From contig CAMAQX010000004.1 in NCBI GenBank assembly GCA_945860455.1, positions 1 through 34,357 of the forward strand: a stretch of DNA of 34,357 nucleotides. Reading direction: 5' to 3'. Source of the stretch: Lishizhenia tianjinensis. Its GTDB lineage: Bacteria; Bacteroidota; Bacteroidia; Flavobacteriales_D; Crocinitomicaceae. Below are positions 3,034 to 29,773 of the stretch, one piece after another (positions within the stretch are counted from its first letter, which is position 1; each line of letters opens with the position of its first letter). The position numbers and the translations under genes are program-made. The notes beneath the pieces are model-generated. The model did no database searches and was not told where the DNA came from. It worked only from the letters and a program-made list of their open reading frames with translations.

Positions 3034-3192
3034 CAGAATTAAACTTACTTTCACGTAAAAATTTGGATTTTTAGCACCAAGGCATTGTGGATAAGCCTAT
3101 ATTTTTTAATTATTCGAAATTGTAATCAAAAAAATGCATTAATTTTAGATTAGATGCAACTTTACAAAACAAAGAAGAGTCTACAAAATGAC

Positions 3193-3741
3193 ATGATGGA
3201 AGACATCGATCTGGTACAAGCCTGTTTGAAGGGAAATCCACGTGCTCAAAAAGCGTTGTTTGAAAAGTTTGCGGCGAAAATGTTTGCAGTTTGTCTTCGG
3301 TATATGAATAATCATGACGAAGCACAAGATGCATTGCAAGATGGTTTTGTAAAGATTTTTTCAAAACTCGTTGATTTTAAAAATGAAGGGGTTTTGGAAG
3401 GGTGGATTAGGCGAATTATTGTTAATACTTGCCTCGATGCGATTAGAAAAAATGCAAAAACCAAATTTGACGTTTCATTGGATGATGTAAGTTATAAATT
3501 AGACTATACAGATAATGGGATGCAATGGCTAGAAGTGGAAGAATTGATGAAATTAATTCAATCCATGCCAAATGGTTACAGGGTTATTTTTAATCTATAT
3601 GCCATTGAAGGTTATTCACATAAAGAGATTGGTGAAAAACTAGGCATCAATGAAAACACTTCAAAATCTCAATATTTACGTGCGCGCGCTTTTTTAAGAG
3701 AACGATTAGAAAAAATCGAATGGACAGAAAAGACACTATAG
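3193..3741 (+). CDS. RNA polymerase ECF-type sigma-70 factor
   Basis: MMEDIDLVQACLKGNPRAQKALFEKFAAKMFAVCLRYMNNHDEAQDALQDGFVKIF (region 2) and GYRVIFNLYAIEGYSHKEIGEKLGINENTSKSQYLRARAFLRERL (region 4). The ORF track starts at 3154; the ATG at 3193/3196 matches the family N-terminus better. Confidence 0.93.
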   Translation: MMEDIDLVQACLKGNPRAQKALFEKFAAKMFAVCLRYMNNHDEAQDALQDGFVKIFSKLVDFKNEGVLEGWIRRIIVNTCLDAIRKNAKTKFDVSLDDVSYKLDYTDNGMQWLEVEELMKLIQSMPNGYRVIFNLYAIEGYSHKEIGEKLGINENTSKSQYLRARAFLRERLEKIEWTEKTL

Positions 3742-4610
3742 AAGAATTGTTTAAGCAAAAACTAGCTGACCATCAAGTTTCGGTAAATCCGGAATTGTGG
3801 TCTTCTATTGCCTCAAAAATTCCTGCAGTAACCCCAGCAGCGATTGACGGCGGAATGACATTGGTAGCTAAAGCGATTATTGGGGTTGCAGTTGCAGCTT
3901 CTGTTGTTGGTCTTGGTTATTTAATTGCTGTTCAGAATGCAACCACAGAAAAGAACACTATTAGAATTCAAGAGAAAACAACTATCAAATACCAACCAGA
4001 AAAAACAAATTCAAATTCTTCAAATGATCAATCCTCAGTTCCAGTTATTAAGGATGATGGAAAGAAAAAAATAATTTCAATAGTTACGAATCCATCAACT
4101 TTAACTAGTTCTTTAATTTCAGAAACACTAACAGGAGCTGAAATAATTCAATCTGAGGTTCAAAAGCTAATTCCTCCAAGTAATGAGAAAGGCAATTCAT
4201 CTAACATTCCCGTTAACGAAGAATTGGCTGCAGAGAAAACAGAAAATAATGCATCAAATACGCTTGTAGCTCCTATTACTTCTGGAAAATCAAATGCAAT
4301 AATACAAGACTTGAAACCAACCGAAGGGAGTAGTTTAACTTTAGTATTGCCAAATATTTTCACGCCAAACGGGGATGGAAATAATGATGTATTAACTCTA
4401 GATGCTTCGACAATCAGTGATTTCAGTATTGTAGTTCTTAACTCTGCTGGAATAGTTGTTTATCAATCCAGTGATTCTTCATTTAGCTGGAATGGAACGC
4501 TGCCAACGGGAGATCCTGTTAATGAAGGCAATTTTATCTATTATGTTACAGGAAAAGATTCGGAGGGAAAACTAATATCCAAACATAGTAGGCTAGTTAT
4601 TAAACATTAA
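3720..4610 (+). CDS. Predicted membrane protein with anti-sigma-like N-terminus, one TM helix, and C-terminal CHU_C/T9SS type-B (gliding-motility-associated) domain
   Basis: N-term LFKQKLADHQVSVNPELWSSIASKI, TM ~3855-3932 (MTLVAKAIIGVAVAASVVGLGYLIAV), C-term LPNIFTPNGDGNNDVLTL...FSWNGTLPTGDPVNEGNFIYYVTGKDSEGK; overlaps the sigma gene by 22 nt. Confidence 0.85.
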   Translation: MDRKDTIEELFKQKLADHQVSVNPELWSSIASKIPAVTPAAIDGGMTLVAKAIIGVAVAASVVGLGYLIAVQNATTEKNTIRIQEKTTIKYQPEKTNSNSSNDQSSVPVIKDDGKKKIISIVTNPSTLTSSLISETLTGAEIIQSEVQKLIPPSNEKGNSSNIPVNEELAAEKTENNASNTLVAPITSGKSNAIIQDLKPTEGSSLTLVLPNIFTPNGDGNNDVLTLDASTISDFSIVVLNSAGIVVYQSSDSSFSWNGTLPTGDPVNEGNFIYYVTGKDSEGKLISKHSRLVIKH

Positions 4611-5522: not shown

Positions 5523-6425
5523 TTAACGAACGTATATTTTCTTGGTAACTTGACCTTGATCAAAAATTGTTTGAACTTGGTAAATACCCGTTGTAATATC
5601 ATTCAACACTATTTGAGTGTTTACATCGTTAATTTTAACACTATAAACTACTCTTCCTTCTAGGGAAACTAATTTCACCTCCCCTCCAATTAAATCAGGA
5701 GTAACATTGATATTAATCTGATCTAACATCGGTTTAATAGATACTTTGTCATCAACAGAAACTTGATTTAATCCAGAAACAGATCCTTCACCAGCAAGTA
5801 TTTGTTCATCTGGATTAATATTATAGGCGTAATCGTGTATTGTCAATTTTAGACCTGTTGGATCTAGGGTATCCAAGCTTAGGCGCACCCAACCATAATT
5901 AATATTAGTTCCTGCCGAAAATTTCATTCCTAAAAATTTCTGACTAACGCCCAAAAATTCACCTTGATTGATGTTGTAAGTAATATTAAATGCTGGAACT
6001 GAAACCACACCTTTTACACCAAGTGCGGCAGATTGAGAACTAAAATTATTTGCAGAAGTAATGGCATCTCCCCCATTGAGCGCTGTAACCCCAAAGGTAC
6101 TGCTCGAACCAATAACTTGTCCTTGAACACCACCAAGTGGGCCAGGTACAGCGTTAGCTTGCGACCCATTATATACATAGGTAAACGGAATCCCCATATA
6201 AGTAGATGACCCATTGCCATTGAACGAGGCGACTTGGAAAGTAATATCAATTCCTGTATCCACATTCATATCAATTTCAAACGGCCCACTTGTTTTATCC
6301 AAAACCACATCTGGATTAACATCGGTGTATTGAATATTTTGAGCTGTCGCCAAACCACTCATCAATAAGGAACTTGCGACAGCTGAGTAAGACTTAATTT
6401 TCGGGGATGTAGATAATTTATTCAT
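5523..6425 (-). CDS. Secreted protein with T9SS type-A-like C-terminal sorting domain
   Basis: Signal peptide MNKLSTSPKIKSYSAVASSLLMSGLATAQ; YTDVNPDVVLD motif; C-term INVTPDLIGGEVKLVSLEGRVVYS...GIYQVQTIFDQGQVTKKIYVR. Confidence 0.85.
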   Translation of the reverse strand: MNKLSTSPKIKSYSAVASSLLMSGLATAQNIQYTDVNPDVVLDKTSGPFEIDMNVDTGIDITFQVASFNGNGSSTYMGIPFTYVYNGSQANAVPGPLGGVQGQVIGSSSTFGVTALNGGDAITSANNFSSQSAALGVKGVVSVPAFNITYNINQGEFLGVSQKFLGMKFSAGTNINYGWVRLSLDTLDPTGLKLTIHDYAYNINPDEQILAGEGSVSGLNQVSVDDKVSIKPMLDQININVTPDLIGGEVKLVSLEGRVVYSVKINDVNTQIVLNDITTGIYQVQTIFDQGQVTKKIYVR

Positions 6426-6440
6426 AAATAATGTATTAAA

Positions 6441-6466
6441 ACAAAAAAGGCGGAATTACTTCCGCC
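6441..6466 (-). terminator. Rho-independent terminator downstream of the 6489..7346 gene
   Basis: Perfect 7-bp stem ggcggaa/ttccgcc (6449-6455, 6460-6466), loop ttac, then TTTTTTGT on the minus strand. Confidence 0.85.
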
Positions 6467-6488
6467 TTCAAATATAATAAAAAAAATA

Positions 6489-7346
6489 TTACTTAACGTA
6501 AACTCTTTTGTTCACTGAACCTGATTCAAAATTTGCAGTAACTGAATAAATACCAGAATCAACTCCTTCGAAAGAAATTGTAGTATTAACATCAGAAATA
6601 GCGATTGTTTTAACCACTTGACCCGCCATGCTAACCATGGAAATTGAACCACCAATTAAATCTGGCGTAACATTGATAGTTGCATCATTTAATGTAGTTT
6701 TGATTGTAACTTTATTTTCAACGGAAACATCTTCAATTCCAGCAGTTTGACAAGTATTAATAGTTGCACCTGGAGTTGCATTGAATGCATATTCTTTCAC
6801 TGTAATTGTTTCAGCATTGGCGGCAACAGAAAGTTTAACCCAAGCATAATGAGTTCCAGAAGTAGCAGTAAATTTAACACCTAAGTATTTGTCCGTAGCA
6901 CCTAAGAAAGGAGTTGTTGTGGAAGTAAAAGGTACTGTTCCGTTAATTAATGCGGCATATCCAAAGTTTCCGTAAGTATCAGTTCCAAATGTTGCAGCAG
7001 CAGAAACAGCAACACCACAATTCAACGCTGCAGCCATAGTTGCAGTATCAGCAGCAATGATTGCGTTTGCAGCAGGTATTGCAGCATAAGCTAATGCACC
7101 CTTATATGTGAAGCTTGAAGTAGCTCCTTCAATGTGAGCAACACCAAATGCGATATCCGGAGTAGCATCATTATTAAAATCAATAGCATAAGGATTTATT
7201 AACGTAGTATTTGAGTCTACAACCACGTCTGGATTTACATCCATATAGGTAATTTGAGCATTAGCAGCGCCTCCGGCTACAATTGCGCCAGCAACAGCTG
7301 TGTAACCAGCTAATTTAGACTTGTTGATTGAGGTAGTTTTTTTCAT
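6489..7346 (-). CDS. Secreted protein with T9SS type-A-like C-terminal sorting domain, paralogue of the 5523..6425 product
   Basis: Signal peptide MKKTTSINKSKLAGYTAVAGAIVAGGAANAQ; YMDVNPDVVVD; INVTPDLIGGSISMVSMAGQVVKT...GIYSVTANFESGSVNKRVYVK. Confidence 0.85.
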   Translation of the reverse strand: MKKTTSINKSKLAGYTAVAGAIVAGGAANAQITYMDVNPDVVVDSNTTLINPYAIDFNNDATPDIAFGVAHIEGATSSFTYKGALAYAAIPAANAIIAADTATMAAALNCGVAVSAAATFGTDTYGNFGYAALINGTVPFTSTTTPFLGATDKYLGVKFTATSGTHYAWVKLSVAANAETITVKEYAFNATPGATINTCQTAGIEDVSVENKVTIKTTLNDATINVTPDLIGGSISMVSMAGQVVKTIAISDVNTTISFEGVDSGIYSVTANFESGSVNKRVYVK

Positions 7347-13315: not shown

Positions 13316-16219
13316 ATGAAACTTTTATTTTTAGTCGCTCTCACCCTAGTTTCCTGTTTTTCAATTAATTCGCAAGTATTAATTAACGAATATTCTTGTT
13401 CCAATATGTCGGGTCCAACTGATGCATATGGGGAAAGAGAAGACTGGATTGAATTATATAACCCAACAGCTACCATCGTCGATTTAACAGGATGGTATTT
13501 ATCGGACAAAGCATCCAATCTGACTAAATGGATAATTCCGAGCGGTTCGATCTCCGGTAGTGGCTATAAAATGGTTTTCTGTTCAAAAAGAAACACGGTA
13601 AATGGTAATCAATACCATCCAAATTTTAACTTATCGCAAACTGAAGGAGATTGGATTATTCTCTCCAATACGTTCGGTAATGTGGTTGATTCTTTCAAAA
13701 TTGTACACATGACCAAAGCAGATCATTCTGTAGGAAGATCAACCAATGGTGCGGCAGATTACAAACTATTTACTTCACCAACCCCAAATTCGGCAAATTC
13801 GGGTGCAATCAATTTTTATACTCCCAAGCCAGTTTTCAGTATTCAAGCTGGATATTATCCTACAACACAGACCGTAAGTATAACATGCCCTGATCCCACT
13901 GCAACAATTAGATATACCCTCGATGGAAGTGACCCAACTAGTACTTCAACCTTGTACACAGGACCTATAACAATAAGTACTACTAAGGTATTGCGTGCTG
14001 CTGCCTTTAGTACAAACCTACAGTCATTTACGGAAACAAATTCATATTTTATAAATGTAAGTCATAGTATCCCTGTTGTTTCCGTTTGTAGTCAAGGAGT
14101 GTTTACCCTTGTGGCCAATGGAAATCAGATTGAGCCAGTTGGTGGTTTTGAATTATTTGAAGAAACCGGATTGTTTATAGATGAAGGACAAGGAGATTTT
14201 AATGAGCATGGAAACGATTCTTGGGCATACGACCAACGAGGATTCGATTTCATTATGCGCGACCAATATGGATACAATAGTGATATTGAGCATCAAATAT
14301 TCCCGGACAACACAAGGGATAATTTCCAGCGATTGATTTTAAAGCCGGCTGCAAGTGATAATTATTCTTTTGAAAATGGAGCTCATATTAGGGATGCATT
14401 TATTCATACCTTGTCTATCCGTGCCGACATGAAATTAGATGAGCGAACATGGCGTCCTTGCGTTGTTTATTTAAATGGAGAATATTGGGGTGTTTATGAA
14501 ATAAGAGAGAAATGTGACGATCACGATTACACAGATTATAAATATAATCAAGATAAATTTCATTTGGAATACTTAAAAACATGGGGAGGGACATGGGAAG
14601 AATATGGTGCGCCAAACGCCCTAAATAATTGGAACAGTTTAACAAATTATATTGCAACCAACAACATGGGCAATGCAACTAATTTTGCATACGTGGACAG
14701 TCTTTTAAATTGGGAATCATTGTGTGATTATTTTATGTTCAATTCTTTTGTTGTAAATCAAGATTGGTTAAATTGGAACACTGCATGGTGGCACGGTACA
14801 GATACTTTAGGTGACAAGAAAAAATGGCGTTATACACTTTGGGATATGGATGCTACTTTTGGCCATTACGTGAATTATACTGGAATACCCGATAACTCAG
14901 CAAATGCAGACCCTTGTAATGTTGAAAACCTTCCTAATCCAGGAGGACAAGGCCATACAGAAATATTAGAAAAATTAATTAATGAAAATCCTCTTGTAGA
15001 ACAATATTACATTACGCGCTATGCGGATTTAGCAAACACGTATTTCTCTTGTAATTACTTAATTCCGTTGCTTGATAGTATGGTGAATGAAATTGCCCCG
15101 GAAATGACCGGCCAATGCCAAAAATGGGGTGGGTCTTATGCAGATTGGCAAAATAAAGTTACTACGCTGAGGAATTTTATTAATACAAGATGTACAGCAT
15201 TAACTGCGGGTATGATTGATTGTTATTCGTTAGCTGGTCCTTTCAATGTAACTTTCAACGTTAGCCCTGTAAATTCAGGCGAAATTAAAGTGAATTCAAT
15301 TTGGGCGCCTAATTATCCTTGGAACGCTAGTTATTATGGCGGAATACAAACCAATTTAATAGCAAAAGGACTTCCTGGTTTTATCTTTGATCATTGGGAG
15401 TATACGATTGGCCCAATGGGATTACCCATCATTTCAGATACAAACTTCATTAATATTTCCGGTATTGAAAATATAGTGGCTGTATTTATTGTAGATGATC
15501 CAACAGAAGATACAGACGGAGATGGGATCACTAATGTTAACGAAAATACGGGGGGTTCTGATCCTTTGGATCCTTGTGACCCAAATCCGAGTACTGCACC
15601 ATGTGATCAAGATAGCGATGGATTAACCAATACAGAGGAGGCAGCAACTGGAACCGCAGCAACAAATCCAGATACAGATGGAGATGGTTTAACGGATGGG
15701 GATGAAGTAACCAATGGGTCTGACCCGTTGAATCCATGTGATCCAGACGACAGCAGTGTTGATTGTCAAATAGATACAGATGGTGACGGATTGCCTGATC
15801 CCCAAGAAGCAAATTTATGTACAGATCCAACTTTGTTTGATACCGATGGAGATGGATTGAGCGATGGAATGGAAATAAATACTGGTTCAAATCCATGCGA
15901 CCCTTGCAGTCCGGTAAATGATTCACCAGATTGTGCAGATGGCATACATATTCCTACCGCTTTTTCGCCTGATGGAGATGGGAATGTTACTAATGAATTC
16001 TACTCAATCATTGTAGGAAAGAATGTTAAATCTATTCAATTCATCATATTCGATCGCTGGGGCAATATAATACTTCAAACTACAAACAAGCAATTTACTT
16101 GGGATGGAACCTTCAAAACAAAAGACTGCAACAGTGGGATATATGCTTTTCAAGCACTAGTAGAATATATAAATGGAACTTCTGAAACAATTACCGGAAA
16201 TATTACTTTGATACGATAA
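13316..16219 (+). CDS. Secreted multidomain CotH-kinase-family protein: lamin-tail domain, chitobiase/HEX C-type domain, CotH kinase, thrombospondin type-3 repeats, CHU_C (T9SS type-B) domain
   Basis: VLINEYSCSN...EDWIELYNPTATIVDLTGWYLSDK (LTD); ATIRYTLDGSDPTSTSTLYTGPITI (CHB_HEX-like); WRPCVVYLNGEYWGVYEIREKCDDHDY and WRYTLWDMDATFGHY (CotH); repeated DTDGDGLTDGDEV (TSP3); IPTAFSPDGDGN...GIYAFQALVEYINGTSETITGNITLIR (CHU_C). Confidence 0.92.
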   Translation: MKLLFLVALTLVSCFSINSQVLINEYSCSNMSGPTDAYGEREDWIELYNPTATIVDLTGWYLSDKASNLTKWIIPSGSISGSGYKMVFCSKRNTVNGNQYHPNFNLSQTEGDWIILSNTFGNVVDSFKIVHMTKADHSVGRSTNGAADYKLFTSPTPNSANSGAINFYTPKPVFSIQAGYYPTTQTVSITCPDPTATIRYTLDGSDPTSTSTLYTGPITISTTKVLRAAAFSTNLQSFTETNSYFINVSHSIPVVSVCSQGVFTLVANGNQIEPVGGFELFEETGLFIDEGQGDFNEHGNDSWAYDQRGFDFIMRDQYGYNSDIEHQIFPDNTRDNFQRLILKPAASDNYSFENGAHIRDAFIHTLSIRADMKLDERTWRPCVVYLNGEYWGVYEIREKCDDHDYTDYKYNQDKFHLEYLKTWGGTWEEYGAPNALNNWNSLTNYIATNNMGNATNFAYVDSLLNWESLCDYFMFNSFVVNQDWLNWNTAWWHGTDTLGDKKKWRYTLWDMDATFGHYVNYTGIPDNSANADPCNVENLPNPGGQGHTEILEKLINENPLVEQYYITRYADLANTYFSCNYLIPLLDSMVNEIAPEMTGQCQKWGGSYADWQNKVTTLRNFINTRCTALTAGMIDCYSLAGPFNVTFNVSPVNSGEIKVNSIWAPNYPWNASYYGGIQTNLIAKGLPGFIFDHWEYTIGPMGLPIISDTNFINISGIENIVAVFIVDDPTEDTDGDGITNVNENTGGSDPLDPCDPNPSTAPCDQDSDGLTNTEEAATGTAATNPDTDGDGLTDGDEVTNGSDPLNPCDPDDSSVDCQIDTDGDGLPDPQEANLCTDPTLFDTDGDGLSDGMEINTGSNPCDPCSPVNDSPDCADGIHIPTAFSPDGDGNVTNEFYSIIVGKNVKSIQFIIFDRWGNIILQTTNKQFTWDGTFKTKDCNSGIYAFQALVEYINGTSETITGNITLIR
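15505..15940 (+). repeat. Thrombospondin type-3/calcium-binding DxDGDG repeats within the CotH protein
   Basis: DTDGDGITN, DQDSDGLTN, DTDGDGLTD, DTDGDGLPD, DTDGDGLSD separated by NPCDPxx linkers. Confidence 0.85.
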
Positions 16220-16223
16220 TTTT

Positions 16224-17240
16224 ATGCATTATTTAATTTCAATAGTGTCACTATTCGTTTTTGTAAAGTTGAACTTTTCGCAAGATTATCACTTCTCACA
16301 GATCAATCGAAACAACATGCTTTACAACCCAGCTGCTACTGGTATGTTTAATGGGTATGAACGTTTTTCCGTATCGCACAGAAATCAATGGATTGGAGCA
16401 GGAACACAGTTTATGACATCCCTAGCTTCCGGCGAATTCACAATCGGTAAAGGCATTCGAGATGAAAAATCTTATGTAGGCATTGGGGTTCTTTTGCTTA
16501 ATGATATTGGAGGTGACTCACGTTTTGGAAACAAAACTGGAGCAATTAATTTCGCGGGAATTGTGCCCTTTAACAAGCAAAATTTACTTTCAGCTGGAAT
16601 TCAAACTGCCTATACAAATCGCTCAGCAGATTTATCAAGAGTCACCTTTTTGAGTCAATGGAATGGAACAGCTATTGATCCAACAATACCAACAGGAGAA
16701 GAAAACAGCATGACTACTTTTGGATATTTAGATGCTTCTGCAGGAATAAATTATCAATATGGACAAAAACAAAACAAAGTAGTTCATGAAAATACGGTTT
16801 CAGTAGAAAGTGGGTTTGCATTTTTCCATCTTAACCGACCCAAACTTCGGTATAATGCAATAACAACTGATAAACTGGATATTAAATTTGTTTTCAATTC
16901 GAAAATCACTTACACAGTGTCATCTCGGGCAGCATTAGATTTTTGTTACTTACAGGCTAAACAAGGCAAACACAATGAAATTGTTGGTGGGGTTTACTAC
17001 AAAACACTTGTCACAGAAGGCTCAAAAATAACGAAGAATAAACAAGATTCTTATTTTGGTTTTGGTGCTTTTTATCAATCAACGGGTGTCCTAATTCCGG
17101 GAGTTTCATTAGATTTCGGCGGATTCAAATTTGGTGTTTCCTACGACATGTTGTTAACCAAATTACGCAATGGATATGGCGGTTCACTTGAGTTTTCATT
17201 TAGTTGGACAGCGATGAAATATTCCATTTTCAATAAATAA
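16224..17240 (+). CDS. Type IX secretion system membrane protein, PorP/SprF family
   Basis: QDYHFSQINRNNMLYNPAATGMFNGYERFSVSHRNQWIGAG...; VSLDFGGFKFGVSYDMLLTKLRNGYGGSLEFSFSW; immediately follows a CHU_C cargo gene. Confidence 0.93.
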   Translation: MHYLISIVSLFVFVKLNFSQDYHFSQINRNNMLYNPAATGMFNGYERFSVSHRNQWIGAGTQFMTSLASGEFTIGKGIRDEKSYVGIGVLLLNDIGGDSRFGNKTGAINFAGIVPFNKQNLLSAGIQTAYTNRSADLSRVTFLSQWNGTAIDPTIPTGEENSMTTFGYLDASAGINYQYGQKQNKVVHENTVSVESGFAFFHLNRPKLRYNAITTDKLDIKFVFNSKITYTVSSRAALDFCYLQAKQGKHNEIVGGVYYKTLVTEGSKITKNKQDSYFGFGAFYQSTGVLIPGVSLDFGGFKFGVSYDMLLTKLRNGYGGSLEFSFSWTAMKYSIFNK

Positions 17241-17317
17241 CCCAGGGAAATAAACCTTGTAATCAAATTTTTAGAAGGAGTTTTAATTGTTGACAGGAAT
17301 TGAAATACAAAAAATGT

Positions 17318-17325
17318 TATCTTTA
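17318..17325 (+). promoter_or_regulatory. Possible -7 element (TATCTTTA) upstream of the TPR-PD40 gene
   Basis: One mismatch to TANNTTTG; TTG candidates at 17290 (TTGACA) and 17300, neither with ideal spacing. Confidence 0.25.
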
Positions 17326-17344
17326 CTTAACTGAAAAAAATTGT

Positions 17345-18715
17345 ATGAATAAATTCTTTTTAACCTTGCTTGTAGTAATCGCAAGCTTCGGTTCTTTGAA
17401 AGCGACACCAACGAGTAAAGAACCTATTGACAGCTCGACTAATTTAATAAACAAAGCTCTGGCCTTAAAACTCTACGAAGATGGGTTAGAATTTTTTAAT
17501 ATGGGTCAAAACAAGGAAGCCTTGTCCAAATTTAAGGACGCTGCAATTAAAGATCCTTCTAATTGGAAAATTGTGTTTTATATTAGTTTAACCAATTATG
17601 AGTTAAATTATTTTTCGTTAGCCTTAGCGCAAGCAAAAGCGGCCTTAAAACTATCAAACGGGAAGCCAAATGCAGATTTTTATGAGCATTATGCAAAAGT
17701 GAACCACCGAATGGGGAATTTAGATACGGCACTTGTTTATTATAAAAAAGCAGAATTAAAATTACCAAGTTCGTTAAAAAAGGAATTCCAAATACCCTTA
17801 CGAATTCAACAAGTAGAATTTGCCAAAAAAGAATTGCTCAATGATAAATCATTTAAAAAATCGATATTAAGTAGATCGGTTAATTCAAATTATGCTGAAT
17901 ATGGACCCATTTTAGCGGACAGTGGGCAAGTGCTTTATTTTACAGCAAGAAAATCAGATACGAAAGGTCGAACCATGAATACAGACGATCAAGATTATTT
18001 TGAAGATATTTATGAAGCTAGGTGGAATTCAGAAACAAAGGATTGGGATAGTATCACGAATGCGTTGAAGTGGAATACGAAAGGATTTGATGCGCTAACT
18101 TATGTTTCTCGAGATGGAAAGTATGCCCTAATGACTATTAACAACGAGGCGCTCGAGCAAAAAACCACTTCTAGTTCGGATATTTTTGAGTTGTCGATTA
18201 CTACTTCAACTGGCAAATGGGGTTCTCCAAAACCGATTGAAAACAAATCAATTAATTCTTCTTATTACGATGGTTCAGCGACAATGACTTCTGATCGCAA
18301 AACAATGTATTTTGTATCAGATCGTAAAGGAGATAAAAAATCTACTGATCTATATAGGGTTCAAAAGGTAGGCAGCGCTTGGGGGAAAGCTGAAGCGTTA
18401 CCAGATTTTATTAATACTGTAGGTCGCGAAACCACACCCTATATTACTCCAGATGGTAAATTCTTGTTTTTTAGCTCTGATGGCTTACCTGGAATGGGTG
18501 GTTTAGATATTTATGTTTCTGAAATTAAAGCGGGAGTTTTTGGACAACCCATAAATCTGGGTTCGATTGTTAATTGTGTATCGGATGACAGCCATTTTTA
18601 TTATAGTCCAGAATTTAAAAAAGGTTTTGTTGCTTCTATAAACACAAAAAACGAAAAAGCCAATTACGATTTATACGAGATTGATTTAAGTGAGTTTACG
18701 TTGCCATTGAAATAG
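17345..18715 (+). CDS. TPR plus PD40 beta-propeller protein (PorE-like N-terminal architecture, no OmpA domain)
   Basis: MNKFFLTLLVVIASFGSLKA signal peptide; TPR LYEDGLEFFNMGQNKEALSKFKDAAIKDPSNW; PD40 SATMTSDRKTMYFVSDRKGDKKSTDLYRVQ, TTPYITPDGKFLFFSSDGLPGMGGLDIYVSE. ORF-track start at 17300 is a TTG. Confidence 0.87.
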   Translation: MNKFFLTLLVVIASFGSLKATPTSKEPIDSSTNLINKALALKLYEDGLEFFNMGQNKEALSKFKDAAIKDPSNWKIVFYISLTNYELNYFSLALAQAKAALKLSNGKPNADFYEHYAKVNHRMGNLDTALVYYKKAELKLPSSLKKEFQIPLRIQQVEFAKKELLNDKSFKKSILSRSVNSNYAEYGPILADSGQVLYFTARKSDTKGRTMNTDDQDYFEDIYEARWNSETKDWDSITNALKWNTKGFDALTYVSRDGKYALMTINNEALEQKTTSSSDIFELSITTSTGKWGSPKPIENKSINSSYYDGSATMTSDRKTMYFVSDRKGDKKSTDLYRVQKVGSAWGKAEALPDFINTVGRETTPYITPDGKFLFFSSDGLPGMGGLDIYVSEIKAGVFGQPINLGSIVNCVSDDSHFYYSPEFKKGFVASINTKNEKANYDLYEIDLSEFTLPLK

Positions 18716-26783: not shown

Positions 26784-27326
26784 TTAGAACGGCGTTTCAA
26801 AATCAGCGAAAATCAATCCTTTTTTATCTTTATCGGAAATAATTGGATCTTCAATCTGCCAATCAATGTGCAGTGTACGGTCATTCCATAAAATGGTTTC
26901 CTCTGCTTCGGGATGATAGTAATTTGTGCACTTATAACAAAAAATTGTATTGTCTTCTAATGCAACAAATCCGTGGGCAAATCCTTCAGGTATCCAAAAT
27001 TGATTTTTTTTTTCGGCTGTAAGTAGGACTGTTTCATGCTGTCCAAAAGTGGGTGAATTTTTTCTAAGATCAACTGCCACATCCAATACGGATCCCTGAA
27101 TCACAGACACCAATTTACCTTGTGAAAATGGTGGTTTTTGAAAATGTAAACCACGCAACACTCCTTTCACTGACGATGACATATTATCTTGAACAAAATT
27201 AACGGGGCCTAGAATTTGAGCGTAACGGCTGGCATGAAAAGATTCAAGAAAAAATCCACGAGAGTCACCAAATATTTTTGGTGAAAGTTCAAATAATCCG
27301 TTTATTTTTTTGCCTTCGATTTCCAT
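26784..27326 (-). CDS. rfbC: dTDP-4-dehydrorhamnose 3,5-epimerase family protein
   Basis: DSRGFFLESFHASRYAQILG, FVQDNMSSSVKGVLRGLHFQKPPFSQGKLVSVIQGSVLDVAVDLRKNSPTFGQH, WIPEGFAHGF. Confidence 0.93.
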   Translation of the reverse strand: MEIEGKKINGLFELSPKIFGDSRGFFLESFHASRYAQILGPVNFVQDNMSSSVKGVLRGLHFQKPPFSQGKLVSVIQGSVLDVAVDLRKNSPTFGQHETVLLTAEKKNQFWIPEGFAHGFVALEDNTIFCYKCTNYYHPEAEETILWNDRTLHIDWQIEDPIISDKDKKGLIFADFETPF

Positions 27327-29773
27327 ATAAGGTTTTTCAATCGTTTGAAGATTCGTATGAAAAATGGTGCATCGTCTTCGTCATCCGTGTAATAACCTGA
27401 GCCATATCCGTAACTATTTCCGTATCCATATCCGTAACCATAACCGTAACCGTATCCGTAACCGTATCCGTAACCGTATCCATAAAAAGAACGCTTGGTT
27501 TCGATACCGTTCAGTATTACATTCAAAGAAGTTAATTTTTGTACTTCAAATAATTCTTCTACTCGTTTAACGAAAATTCGCTTGGAGTAATGTGATTTAA
27601 ATACATAAATTGGAATATCCGATGCAGCAAGAATTTGAATTCCATCAGAAACAATTCCAACTGGAGGGTTATCAATCATTACGACATCGTATCGATTTTT
27701 TAATTCCTCTAAGACCTCTTGAAATTCCTTGCTTTGTATTAATTCCGAAGGATTAGGTGGAATAGGTCCGGCGGTAATAAAGTCAAGCCCACTAATATGT
27801 GAATGTTGAATTACATCATCTACGGAAGCATTTCGAGATAAAATATTACTCATCCCAGCTACATTTTCAGCGGCAAAGCCATAGTGAACCTTGGGCTTTC
27901 TTAAATCCAAATCAAGCACAACCGTTGATTTACCTGAAACGGCAATCATTCCAGCCAAGTTTAATGCTACAAACGTTTTTCCCTCACCAGAAACAGAAGA
28001 TGAAATGGCAATCACCTTCGCATCTTTATTAATAAAACTCATATTTGAGCGAATGCTTCGAATTGCTTCTGCCATTCTACTTTTGGAAGATTCTGCAACA
28101 ACAACTTGAGAATACTTCATTTTACGTTTGTACATAGGAACACCACCCAGGAAATTTGTTTGTTTTGGCAACATTTTAATTAAATCTTCTGGGCCGACAA
28201 TTTCATTGTAGATTAAATATTTGAAAATCATCAAGGACAATCCAATGATCCCGCCGAAAAGTAGGGATATTATATAAATTAATTTTTGATTTGGACTCAA
28301 TGGACTTTCTGGTAAAATAGGAGCAGTTAATACTCTGTTTTCAGAGGAGTATCCTGCATTTGATAAAGCAAATTCAATTTTTTTCTCAGTAAACAAGGTA
28401 AAATATCGATTATTCAATTCTTCAATATATTTTAATCGATCAAATTTTAATGCCTTTTCAGGCATGCTAAAAAATCTATCTTCTGTTTCAGTTAATTTTT
28501 CTTGAATTAATCCGATATCTCCTTTCAATCGTTCTTCAATAACGGTCAAGCTTTTTTTTACAGATGCTTGTCGTAGTTCAATTTTATTTTTGTTCTTCTT
28601 ATATTCAGAATGTTCTTCTGTTACATCATTAAGTAATTCATCTCGGCGCTCCAATAATTTATTCAGATCCTCAATTTGGCGTAACAAAGATCCTTCAAAA
28701 CTTCGCTTACCTATCATTTCTGGAATCAATTTATAGACATCTAATTTATCCGGGTCTTGAATAAGCTTACCTTTAATCAAATATAATGTAACTAACTCCT
28801 CCTCAACCTCTAATAACTTCTTTTTCAATTCATTGACTTTCTCTGAAACAGATTCACTTTCAGATTTTGGGTCAGTAATCCGTTCCTTTCGTTGAAAATT
28901 ATTCATGCTATCACGTGCAATTTTTAGCACCTTTGACAATGAATCTAACTGAGTTTCAACAAAACCAATTACTTTCTGATTGTTTTGTTTTCCCATTTGC
29001 TCCTCGTACTTGAAAAAAGCATCCAACAAGGCAACAACGATATCCTGGCACAAACGAGGATTAAAGTGATCAAATGAAATTTGAATTGTCTTGGCACCTG
29101 GATCAACAGGCATCACCGTGAGTTTAGACATCCATTCCTTCATTAAGGAATATTTTTTGTTTAAAATAATATACAAATCATTACCTTCAATAGTTTCAAG
29201 CAATTCAGATTTTGATCCTGAAAATTGCAATTCAAAATCTTCATTTTTAAATTTACCATTTAAGACTCCTCTAATTACTTTTGCTTTGCCATTTTTATTA
29301 TACTGTAATTCGATTATATTATTGGCATATTTCACATCTATTCTCAATCCACAAACTGATGAATCCTTTATCTGAAGAGGAACAATTTTAAATCCTGTTG
29401 ATTTATAAAGATCTTTAGTTAGTAATTTTCCTTCTGAAAAAATGCCTACAGCCGTATTTATTTTACTAATTGCTTTTTCAAAAAGATACTCTGAGCGAAG
29501 AAATTCAATTGTTTTATTCATATCAGTACCTTTTGCTTGTACTGACAACGCCCCCTCTCCTAGTGCTTGTTTGACCTGGTCTTCTTCAACTAATTGTAAA
29601 ATTGCGGAAGATTGATAAAGCGGTTTTGTATAGCGTAAATACAAAAAAGCGATTGAGCCAAATATACACATGTATATCAGCGGAAGATACCAATGCCTAG
29701 AAATTATTTCACCCAAAATTATTGGGTTGAATTCTTTATTGATTATTAATTTTTTATCTTGACCTACTGACAT
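27302..29773 (-). CDS. Exopolysaccharide biosynthesis tyrosine autokinase/chain-length determinant (Wzc-like) with Tyr-Gly-rich C-terminus
   Basis: Wzz N-terminal domain with coiled coil; Walker A ISSSVSGEGKTFVALNLAG, Walker A' VVLDLDLRKPKVHY, YDVVMIDNPPVG; C-terminal (YG)n. Confidence 0.94.
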   Translation of the reverse strand: MSVGQDKKLIINKEFNPIILGEIISRHWYLPLIYMCIFGSIAFLYLRYTKPLYQSSAILQLVEEDQVKQALGEGALSVQAKGTDMNKTIEFLRSEYLFEKAISKINTAVGIFSEGKLLTKDLYKSTGFKIVPLQIKDSSVCGLRIDVKYANNIIELQYNKNGKAKVIRGVLNGKFKNEDFELQFSGSKSELLETIEGNDLYIILNKKYSLMKEWMSKLTVMPVDPGAKTIQISFDHFNPRLCQDIVVALLDAFFKYEEQMGKQNNQKVIGFVETQLDSLSKVLKIARDSMNNFQRKERITDPKSESESVSEKVNELKKKLLEVEEELVTLYLIKGKLIQDPDKLDVYKLIPEMIGKRSFEGSLLRQIEDLNKLLERRDELLNDVTEEHSEYKKNKNKIELRQASVKKSLTVIEERLKGDIGLIQEKLTETEDRFFSMPEKALKFDRLKYIEELNNRYFTLFTEKKIEFALSNAGYSSENRVLTAPILPESPLSPNQKLIYIISLLFGGIIGLSLMIFKYLIYNEIVGPEDLIKMLPKQTNFLGGVPMYKRKMKYSQVVVAESSKSRMAEAIRSIRSNMSFINKDAKVIAISSSVSGEGKTFVALNLAGMIAVSGKSTVVLDLDLRKPKVHYGFAAENVAGMSNILSRNASVDDVIQHSHISGLDFITAGPIPPNPSELIQSKEFQEVLEELKNRYDVVMIDNPPVGIVSDGIQILAASDIPIYVFKSHYSKRIFVKRVEELFEVQKLTSLNVILNGIETKRSFYGYGYGYGYGYGYGYGYGYGYGNSYGYGSGYYTDDEDDAPFFIRIFKRLKNLIWKSKAKK
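27391..27488 (-). repeat. Tandem hexamer-like repeat encoding a Tyr-Gly dipeptide tract in the Wzc-like C-terminus
   Basis: FYGYGYGYG...YGNSYGYGSGYY: about 11 consecutive YG then NS, two more YG, SGYY; DNA is alternating TACGGT/TACGGA. Confidence 0.9.

Follow-up and report, generated by a model that had tools for sequence, protein, structure and literature searches.

Introduction

CHU_C domains normally lie at the C-terminus of proteins exported by the type IX secretion system (T9SS), and ECF sigma factors are usually paired with anti-sigma factors that have a single transmembrane (TM) helix. In the flagellar system, sigma-28 is held by FlgM, a soluble anti-sigma factor that is exported whole by the flagellar type III apparatus. 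The Dma anti-sigma factors, which are confined to Bacteroidota and encoded beside an ECF sigma factor (ECF21), consist of an N-terminal sigma-binding part, a TM helix, a long disordered tether and an outer-membrane beta-barrel, and their regulon comprises vesiculation/PUL genes (PMC13088901). In P. gingivalis the surface protein PorA, which is made with a signal peptide, acts through the two-component system PorXY and SigP on the genes of T9SS components (PMC7712824); PorXY-SigP was the only studied route matching adhesin production to T9SS capacity that our literature search returned. The T9SS type-B C-terminal domain (CTD; CHU_C/TIGR04131) and the PorP/SprF shuttles have been described as well (PMC12618676, PMC9143113).

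Here we describe a gene pair within a window of 34,357 nucleotides (the whole stretch of DNA that was analysed), in which an ECF sigma gene is followed by the gene of an anti-sigma-like membrane protein ending in a CHU_C domain. No description of a fusion between CHU_C and an anti-sigma factor was found in the literature searched.

Results and Discussion

Organisation of the gene pair

The features of the locus are listed below with their positions in the window.

3155-3182, plus strand: predicted ECF-type promoter of the sigma gene, TGCAACTTT-N15-GTCT (-35/-10 spacing N18), conserved upstream of orthologous sigma genes
3193-3741, plus strand: ECF sigma gene, 182 aa, start ATG at 3193 or 3196, Pfam Sigma70_r2 and Sigma70_r4_2
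3720-3741, plus strand: 22-nt overlap of the sigma and anti-sigma genes, translational coupling, from the open reading frames
3720-4610, plus strand: anti-sigma-like membrane protein with C-terminal CHU_C domain, 296 aa
3720-3854, plus strand: cytoplasmic anti-sigma-like segment, residues 1-45, conserved kDxIkxLFxxkL...VxPeLWxxisS
3867-3935, plus strand: TM helix, residues 50-72, from the AlphaFold2 helix and the hydropathy in orthologues
3936-4328, plus strand: disordered periplasmic linker rich in Ser/Thr/Asn/Lys/Glu, residues 73-203, from pLDDT and hypervariable sequence
4329-4607, plus strand: CHU_C / T9SS type-B-like domain without RWG, residues 204-296, from PF13585, pLDDT and Foldseek

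In the sigma factor Pfam recognised region 2 (E 4.5e-14) and region 4 (E 2.6e-15) and no others, and its length also agrees with the about 180 aa of an ECF sigma factor; its nearest PDB chains are the ECF sigma factors SigE/SigH/SigW/RpoE. The closest named match, with 98% identity, came from a MAG labelled Lishizhenia tianjinensis; the host genome assembly, of which the window is one contig and which falls into the Crocinitomicaceae by its named relatives, comprises 2.47 Mb and is 87% complete. The original prediction of an ECF sigma factor whose gene overlaps that of a membrane protein by 22 nt was thus confirmed, the first part by the two Pfam regions and the second by the reading frames at 3720-3741. 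Among relatives the distance between the two genes ranged from -29 to +47 nt, mostly from -29 to +2.

The longest open reading frame of the sigma gene begins with an ATG at 3154, which was rejected as start codon since it runs into the conserved promoter at 3155-3182; the previously proposed start at 3193 (or 3196) was therefore retained. The -10 element lies no more than 10-13 nt before the start codon (window 3179-3196), and about 2-20 nt were counted in relatives; the sigma mRNA therefore probably has no leader or almost none.

Anatomy of the anti-sigma-like protein

The alignment of orthologues showed a conserved N-terminus, in which D5, V22 and W27 are invariant within residues 1-45, followed by a TM segment, a linker of hypervariable sequence and the CHU_C domain, which is again conserved. 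An AlphaFold2 model built with 25 orthologues returned helices at residues 5-17 and 24-32, a TM helix at 50-72, disorder from about 73 to 200 (pLDDT mostly <50) and a confident beta-sandwich from about 205 to 296, with pLDDT of 82-92 over most of the length of the CHU_C domain. The hydropathy of the best 19-residue window had a median of 2.0 over 85 orthologues and the linker a median length of about 129 aa. The match of PF13585 (CHU_C) to residues 210-281 scored 50.8 bits (cut-off 27) with an E of 1.9e-13; the NCBI model TIGR04131 scored 34.5, just under its cut-off of 35. A PDB sequence search with the protein gave no match; Foldseek matched the beta-sandwich to PorZ, to a chain of the RemZ-containing SprA-PorV-RemZ complex and to other Ig-like domains. 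Pfam and AlphaFold2 together bear out the layout originally read from the sequence, namely a cytosolic N-terminal part, one TM helix, a linker and a CHU_C domain.

The absence of a cleavable signal peptide was also upheld. No cleavable Sec signal peptide was found in the protein, as its N-in TM helix at 50-72 comes after a cytosolic segment, and a cleavage-like A-x-A motif near the end of the TM helix occurred in only 2 of 88 orthologues.

Conservation of the sigma/CHU_C pair

Full-length matches to the anti-sigma-like protein were found among the 100 Crocinitomicaceae genomes searched. An ECF sigma gene lies directly upstream on the same strand in 29 of the 30 full-length family homologues fetched, the exception being a contig edge, and the pairing is therefore not due to chance. 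A second, independent set of 80 named loci was collected by searching with the sigma factor. A CHU_C-ended protein follows the sigma gene in 77 of them, and two of the remaining three sit near contig ends; among the carriers are Fluviicola chungangensis, Crocinitomix catalasitica, Brumimicrobium mesophilum, Brumimicrobium oceani and Lishizhenia tianjinensis. The search for this fusion among relatives, which the original prediction had proposed, thus returned a pair conserved across the Crocinitomicaceae.

A profile of the N-terminus and TM helix matched 89 of the 100 family genomes and, across the phylum, 6 of 398 genomes, four of them outside the family. One of these four belongs to the same order and again has a CHU_C end. 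The other three (E 5e-6 to 5e-8) come from a different family within the class and share the layout up to its end, which is an outer-membrane beta-barrel.

A CHU_C domain without RWG

The RWG signature occurs in none of the 88 anti-sigma orthologues, compared with 52 of the 54 CHU_C domains of regulated cargo. The anti-sigma CHU_C domains retain FTPNGDGxND, WDG, GxYxY and the signature of the C-terminal strand, the counts for the other four signatures being 87/88 for A, 82/88 for C, 80/88 for D and 78/88 for E. In a tree of CHU_C domains those of the anti-sigma factors stood apart from cargo, with 2 label changes compared with 22 in shuffles, and 72% of the bootstrap trees needed one label change; as the alignment has few columns, this result is a weak indication that the anti-sigma domains form a lineage of their own.

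Five conserved motifs have been defined in the type-B CTD of F. johnsoniae, each of them required for secretion (PMC12618676). Since each motif is required, the loss of RWG, presumably part of one of them, suggests that the anti-sigma domain is recognised and not exported, or that it no longer meets the machinery; we infer that the former fits the regulon described below better than the latter. The uncleaved N-in anchor, the predicted periplasm-spanning linker and the RWG-less CHU_C domain are consistent with a sensor and not with a secreted protein.

A promoter common to the sigma gene and T9SS cargo genes

The upstream regions of essentially all fetched family orthologues of the sigma gene have in common the motif TGCAAC-(C/T)TT...GTCT, in which the gap is always 18 nt, and a slightly looser form of it is present at 76 of the 80 named sigma loci. 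In the own genome a position weight matrix (PWM) trained on relatives scored 20.7 at the sigma promoter and no more than 10.2 at other background positions (268,390 positions). The sigma factor itself presumably recognises this promoter.

The strict motif TGCAACYTT-N15-GTCT was searched in the 100 Crocinitomicaceae genomes and returned 161 sites, compared with 47 for the reversed pattern and 25 for a control with changed spacing (N21). None of the N21 control sites leads to a CHU_C gene and most of them fall inside genes. From the true sites 96 were fetched, none of them at a recognised sigma gene, and 73 of these, from ~70 genomes, could be evaluated. The first gene encodes a CHU_C-ended protein at 44 of the 96 sites, and at another 10 a secreted lead gene of 100-180 aa precedes the CHU_C gene; at 19 sites the gene is without CHU_C, about 11 of these having type-A-like T9SS tails when judged by eye. 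At the remaining sites the gene runs off the DNA (13, one of them itself a sigma gene), no gene follows (7) or the motif lies inside a gene (3). CHU_C cargo, either direct or after one small lead gene, was thus found downstream of 54 of the 73 evaluable non-sigma sites against a background of about 2%, giving a binomial P of about 1e-75, a value inflated by the kinship of the genomes. Since the CHU_C profile had been built partly from these same cargo proteins, nine held-out cargo C-termini were checked with Pfam, and all nine scored above the CHU_C cut-off. Where such lead genes stand between the promoter and the CHU_C cargo gene, the intergenic gaps measure -1 to +36 nt.

The original prediction had expected T9SS genes or cargo genes among the targets of the sigma factor. 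Cargo genes were indeed found (54 of 73 evaluable sites), while the part concerning the machinery did not hold, no T9SS machinery or shuttle gene being seen directly under the promoter. One relative carries a GldM-like gene (by eye) 109 nt after a promoter-bearing CHU_C cargo gene, and in this species the regulon is possibly linked to the motor. What is new here is this predicted promoter common to the sigma genes and to T9SS cargo genes.

The promoter in the own genome and in a genus without the pair

In the own genome the strict TGCAAC-N18-GTCT pattern occurred, besides the sigma promoter, at three sites, which lie inside genes or not plausibly before cargo. A one-mismatch search and the PWM yielded two cargo candidates, one, with a score of 26.3, lying 22 nt before the gene of a type-A-like-tailed protein of 900 aa and the other, with a score of 22.3, lying 26 nt before that of a CHU_C (type-B) protein of 757 aa; the PWM found only the sigma promoter and these two genes. 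As the genome has ~39 CHU_C genes and only a few bear the promoter, the predicted regulon is a subset of the CHU_C genes.

The window also holds other genes of interest. At 13316-18715 a CotH/TSP3/CHU_C cargo gene, a PorP/SprF gene and a PD40/TPR gene stand in a row, resembling the type-B sets of cargo, shuttle and anchor in F. johnsoniae; the ECF promoter was not found before this gene set. Two paralogous secreted proteins, 300 and 285 aa long, are encoded in tandem at 5523-7346, and their type-A T9SS tails score near threshold. The product of 27302-29773 is a Wzc-like polysaccharide kinase, whose long GYGYGY tail is possibly a tyrosine cluster and repeat tract.

One genus (g2, 8 genomes) is without the pair: the N-terminal profile was silent in seven of its genomes and found a weak paralogue in the eighth, and the best sigma matches reached 1e-47 to 1e-52, compared with 1e-87 for a true orthologue. 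Only 2 motif sites were found in these genomes, compared with 5 control sites and with the 14 that the frequency in the other genomes would predict. The pair and the promoter excess are therefore missing together in this genus. The proposed link to the T9SS is supported by this absence of an excess where the pair is absent and by the promoter that sigma and cargo genes have in common.

A proposed circuit and its alternatives

As the inhibitor ends in a T9SS tag and the promoter recurs before genes of tagged proteins, a dummy cargo seems to match cargo production to secretion. On balance we favour an autoregulated ECF sigma/anti-sigma pair controlling T9SS cargo genes, in which a tethered mimic of cargo would report on the engagement of the type-B machinery. 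Residues 1-45 would hold the sigma factor at the inner membrane, and the disordered tether (median about 129 aa) would span the periplasm, allowing the CHU_C domain to reach the outer membrane. Lacking RWG, the domain would be a mimic offered to type-B partners, that is the SprA translocon and/or a PorP/SprF-type shuttle. When the machinery is free the mimic would be engaged and, in the most likely polarity, pulling or proteolysis of the anchored protein would free the sigma factor, which would then transcribe its own operon and the cargo genes. Cargo would compete for the machinery and, upon saturating it, would leave the mimic alone, the sigma factor then staying off. At sequence level the circuit draws on the pairing, the coupling, the anatomy, the common promoter, the co-absence in one genus, the loss of RWG and the separate lineage; against it, the loss of RWG could mean that the domain has no contact with the T9SS and is now a generic Ig-like sensor.

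Two alternatives weigh most, a reversed polarity and a generic sensor of the Dma kind. The same facts (54 of 73 cargo sites, 77 of 80 pairings, loss of RWG) would also serve a circuit of opposite polarity, in which a mimic sitting on the shuttle or translocon is the OFF state and cargo displaces it, leading to proteolysis, to an active sigma factor and to a feed-forward burst of adhesins. Positive autoregulation through the common promoter would fit such a switch; however, a secretion machine of limited capacity would tend to become blocked if cargo induced the making of further cargo, and we regard this polarity as unlikely.

A generic envelope sensor, whose C-terminus would only anchor to or sense the outer membrane or cell wall in the manner of Dma, with its CHU_C ancestry unused and the adhesin regulon incidental, is suggested by the Dma architecture, by the absence of RWG from 88 of 88 orthologues and by the homologous N-termini that carry beta-barrels in another family. 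The retention of the other four signatures (A 87/88, C 82/88, D 80/88, E 78/88) and the fact that the regulated genes bear that very CHU_C domain argue against it and make it rather unlikely.

The promoter might instead be read by a different sigma factor, such as a paralogous ECF sigma, the pair being only one of its targets, given the 12 ECF-like sigma loci of the genome, of which one shows 47% identity. Yet g2, which is without the sigma orthologue and the motif excess, keeps a paralogous sigma in most of its genomes (best E 1e-47 to 1e-52), and this possibility appears slim.

An ordinary T9SS cargo protein with an extended N-terminus and no anti-sigma function, for which the presence of a CHU_C domain speaks, is hardly credible given an uncleaved N-in TM helix in place of a cleavable signal peptide, the coupling to an ECF sigma gene in 77 of 80 loci, an N-terminus common to barrel-ended anti-sigma-like proteins and the absence of RWG in every orthologue (0/88). 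The original reading of the protein as of anti-sigma type and not as ordinary cargo is accordingly supported by its uncleaved N-in anchor, its pairing with a sigma factor and its RWG-less CHU_C lineage.

Two further loci of the own genome resemble the pair. On contig C181 a second ECF sigma gene is followed by that of an anti-sigma-like protein of ~565 aa ending in PorP/SprF (Pfam E 4e-12), the T9SS type-B shuttle. About half of the 100 family genomes have this PorP/SprF-ended anti-sigma-like protein, and in every case where the fetched DNA extends far enough past its gene, a free PorP/SprF gene comes directly next. The protein may complement the CHU_C anti-sigma factor as the other half of the proposed T9SS control. 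On contig C270 the closest paralogous sigma gene (47% identity) is followed by the gene of a TM protein of 440 aa; this protein is similar at its N-terminus, and its C-terminus looks like a degenerate CHU_C domain and matches no Pfam family. Paralogues like it, of 420-470 aa, occur in many relatives.

Comparison with known systems

In this pair a single protein would connect the domain by which cargo is recognised to a sigma factor dedicated to it, a simple arrangement that bears on how Bacteroidota match very large surface adhesins to T9SS capacity. The predicted regulon and promoter are testable in cultured Crocinitomicaceae (Fluviicola, Brumimicrobium, Lishizhenia).

The CHU_C anti-sigma factor resembles Dma in its restriction to Bacteroidota, in adjoining an ECF sigma gene (29/30 and 77/80) and in its succession of N-terminal part, TM helix, disordered tether and folded C-terminal domain. 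Unlike in Dma, a T9SS type-B sorting domain (the Ig-like CHU_C) replaces the outer-membrane beta-barrel, and the predicted regulon comprises T9SS cargo instead of vesiculation/PUL genes. Since the defining beta-barrel is absent, we do not file the protein as Dma; the likeness is one of layout. In the reading proposed here the Dma class would be extended, the outer end of such anti-sigma factors being swappable and, in this case, reporting on a secretion machine.

With PorA-PorXY-SigP the pair would have in common that a protein bearing a T9SS CTD feeds back on T9SS-related transcription via an ECF sigma factor, whereas in the present pair CTD and anti-sigma factor are parts of one polypeptide and the predicted targets are cargo genes. 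The domain belongs to the same family as the CTD of type-B cargo and conserves the A, C, D and E signatures; it differs from it in being tethered to the membrane, without a cleavable signal peptide and without RWG, and in scoring just under the TIGR04131 cut-off.

As with FlgM, transcription of cargo genes would be coupled to the state of a secretion apparatus via an anti-sigma factor with an export signal; unlike FlgM, the CHU_C anti-sigma factor is membrane-anchored and probably not exported. We tentatively propose, as an idea that falls somewhat short of probable, that an export-disabled sorting tag on an anti-sigma factor acts as a gauge of T9SS vacancy setting the transcription of tag-bearing genes, a membrane-anchored counterpart of the FlgM checkpoint.
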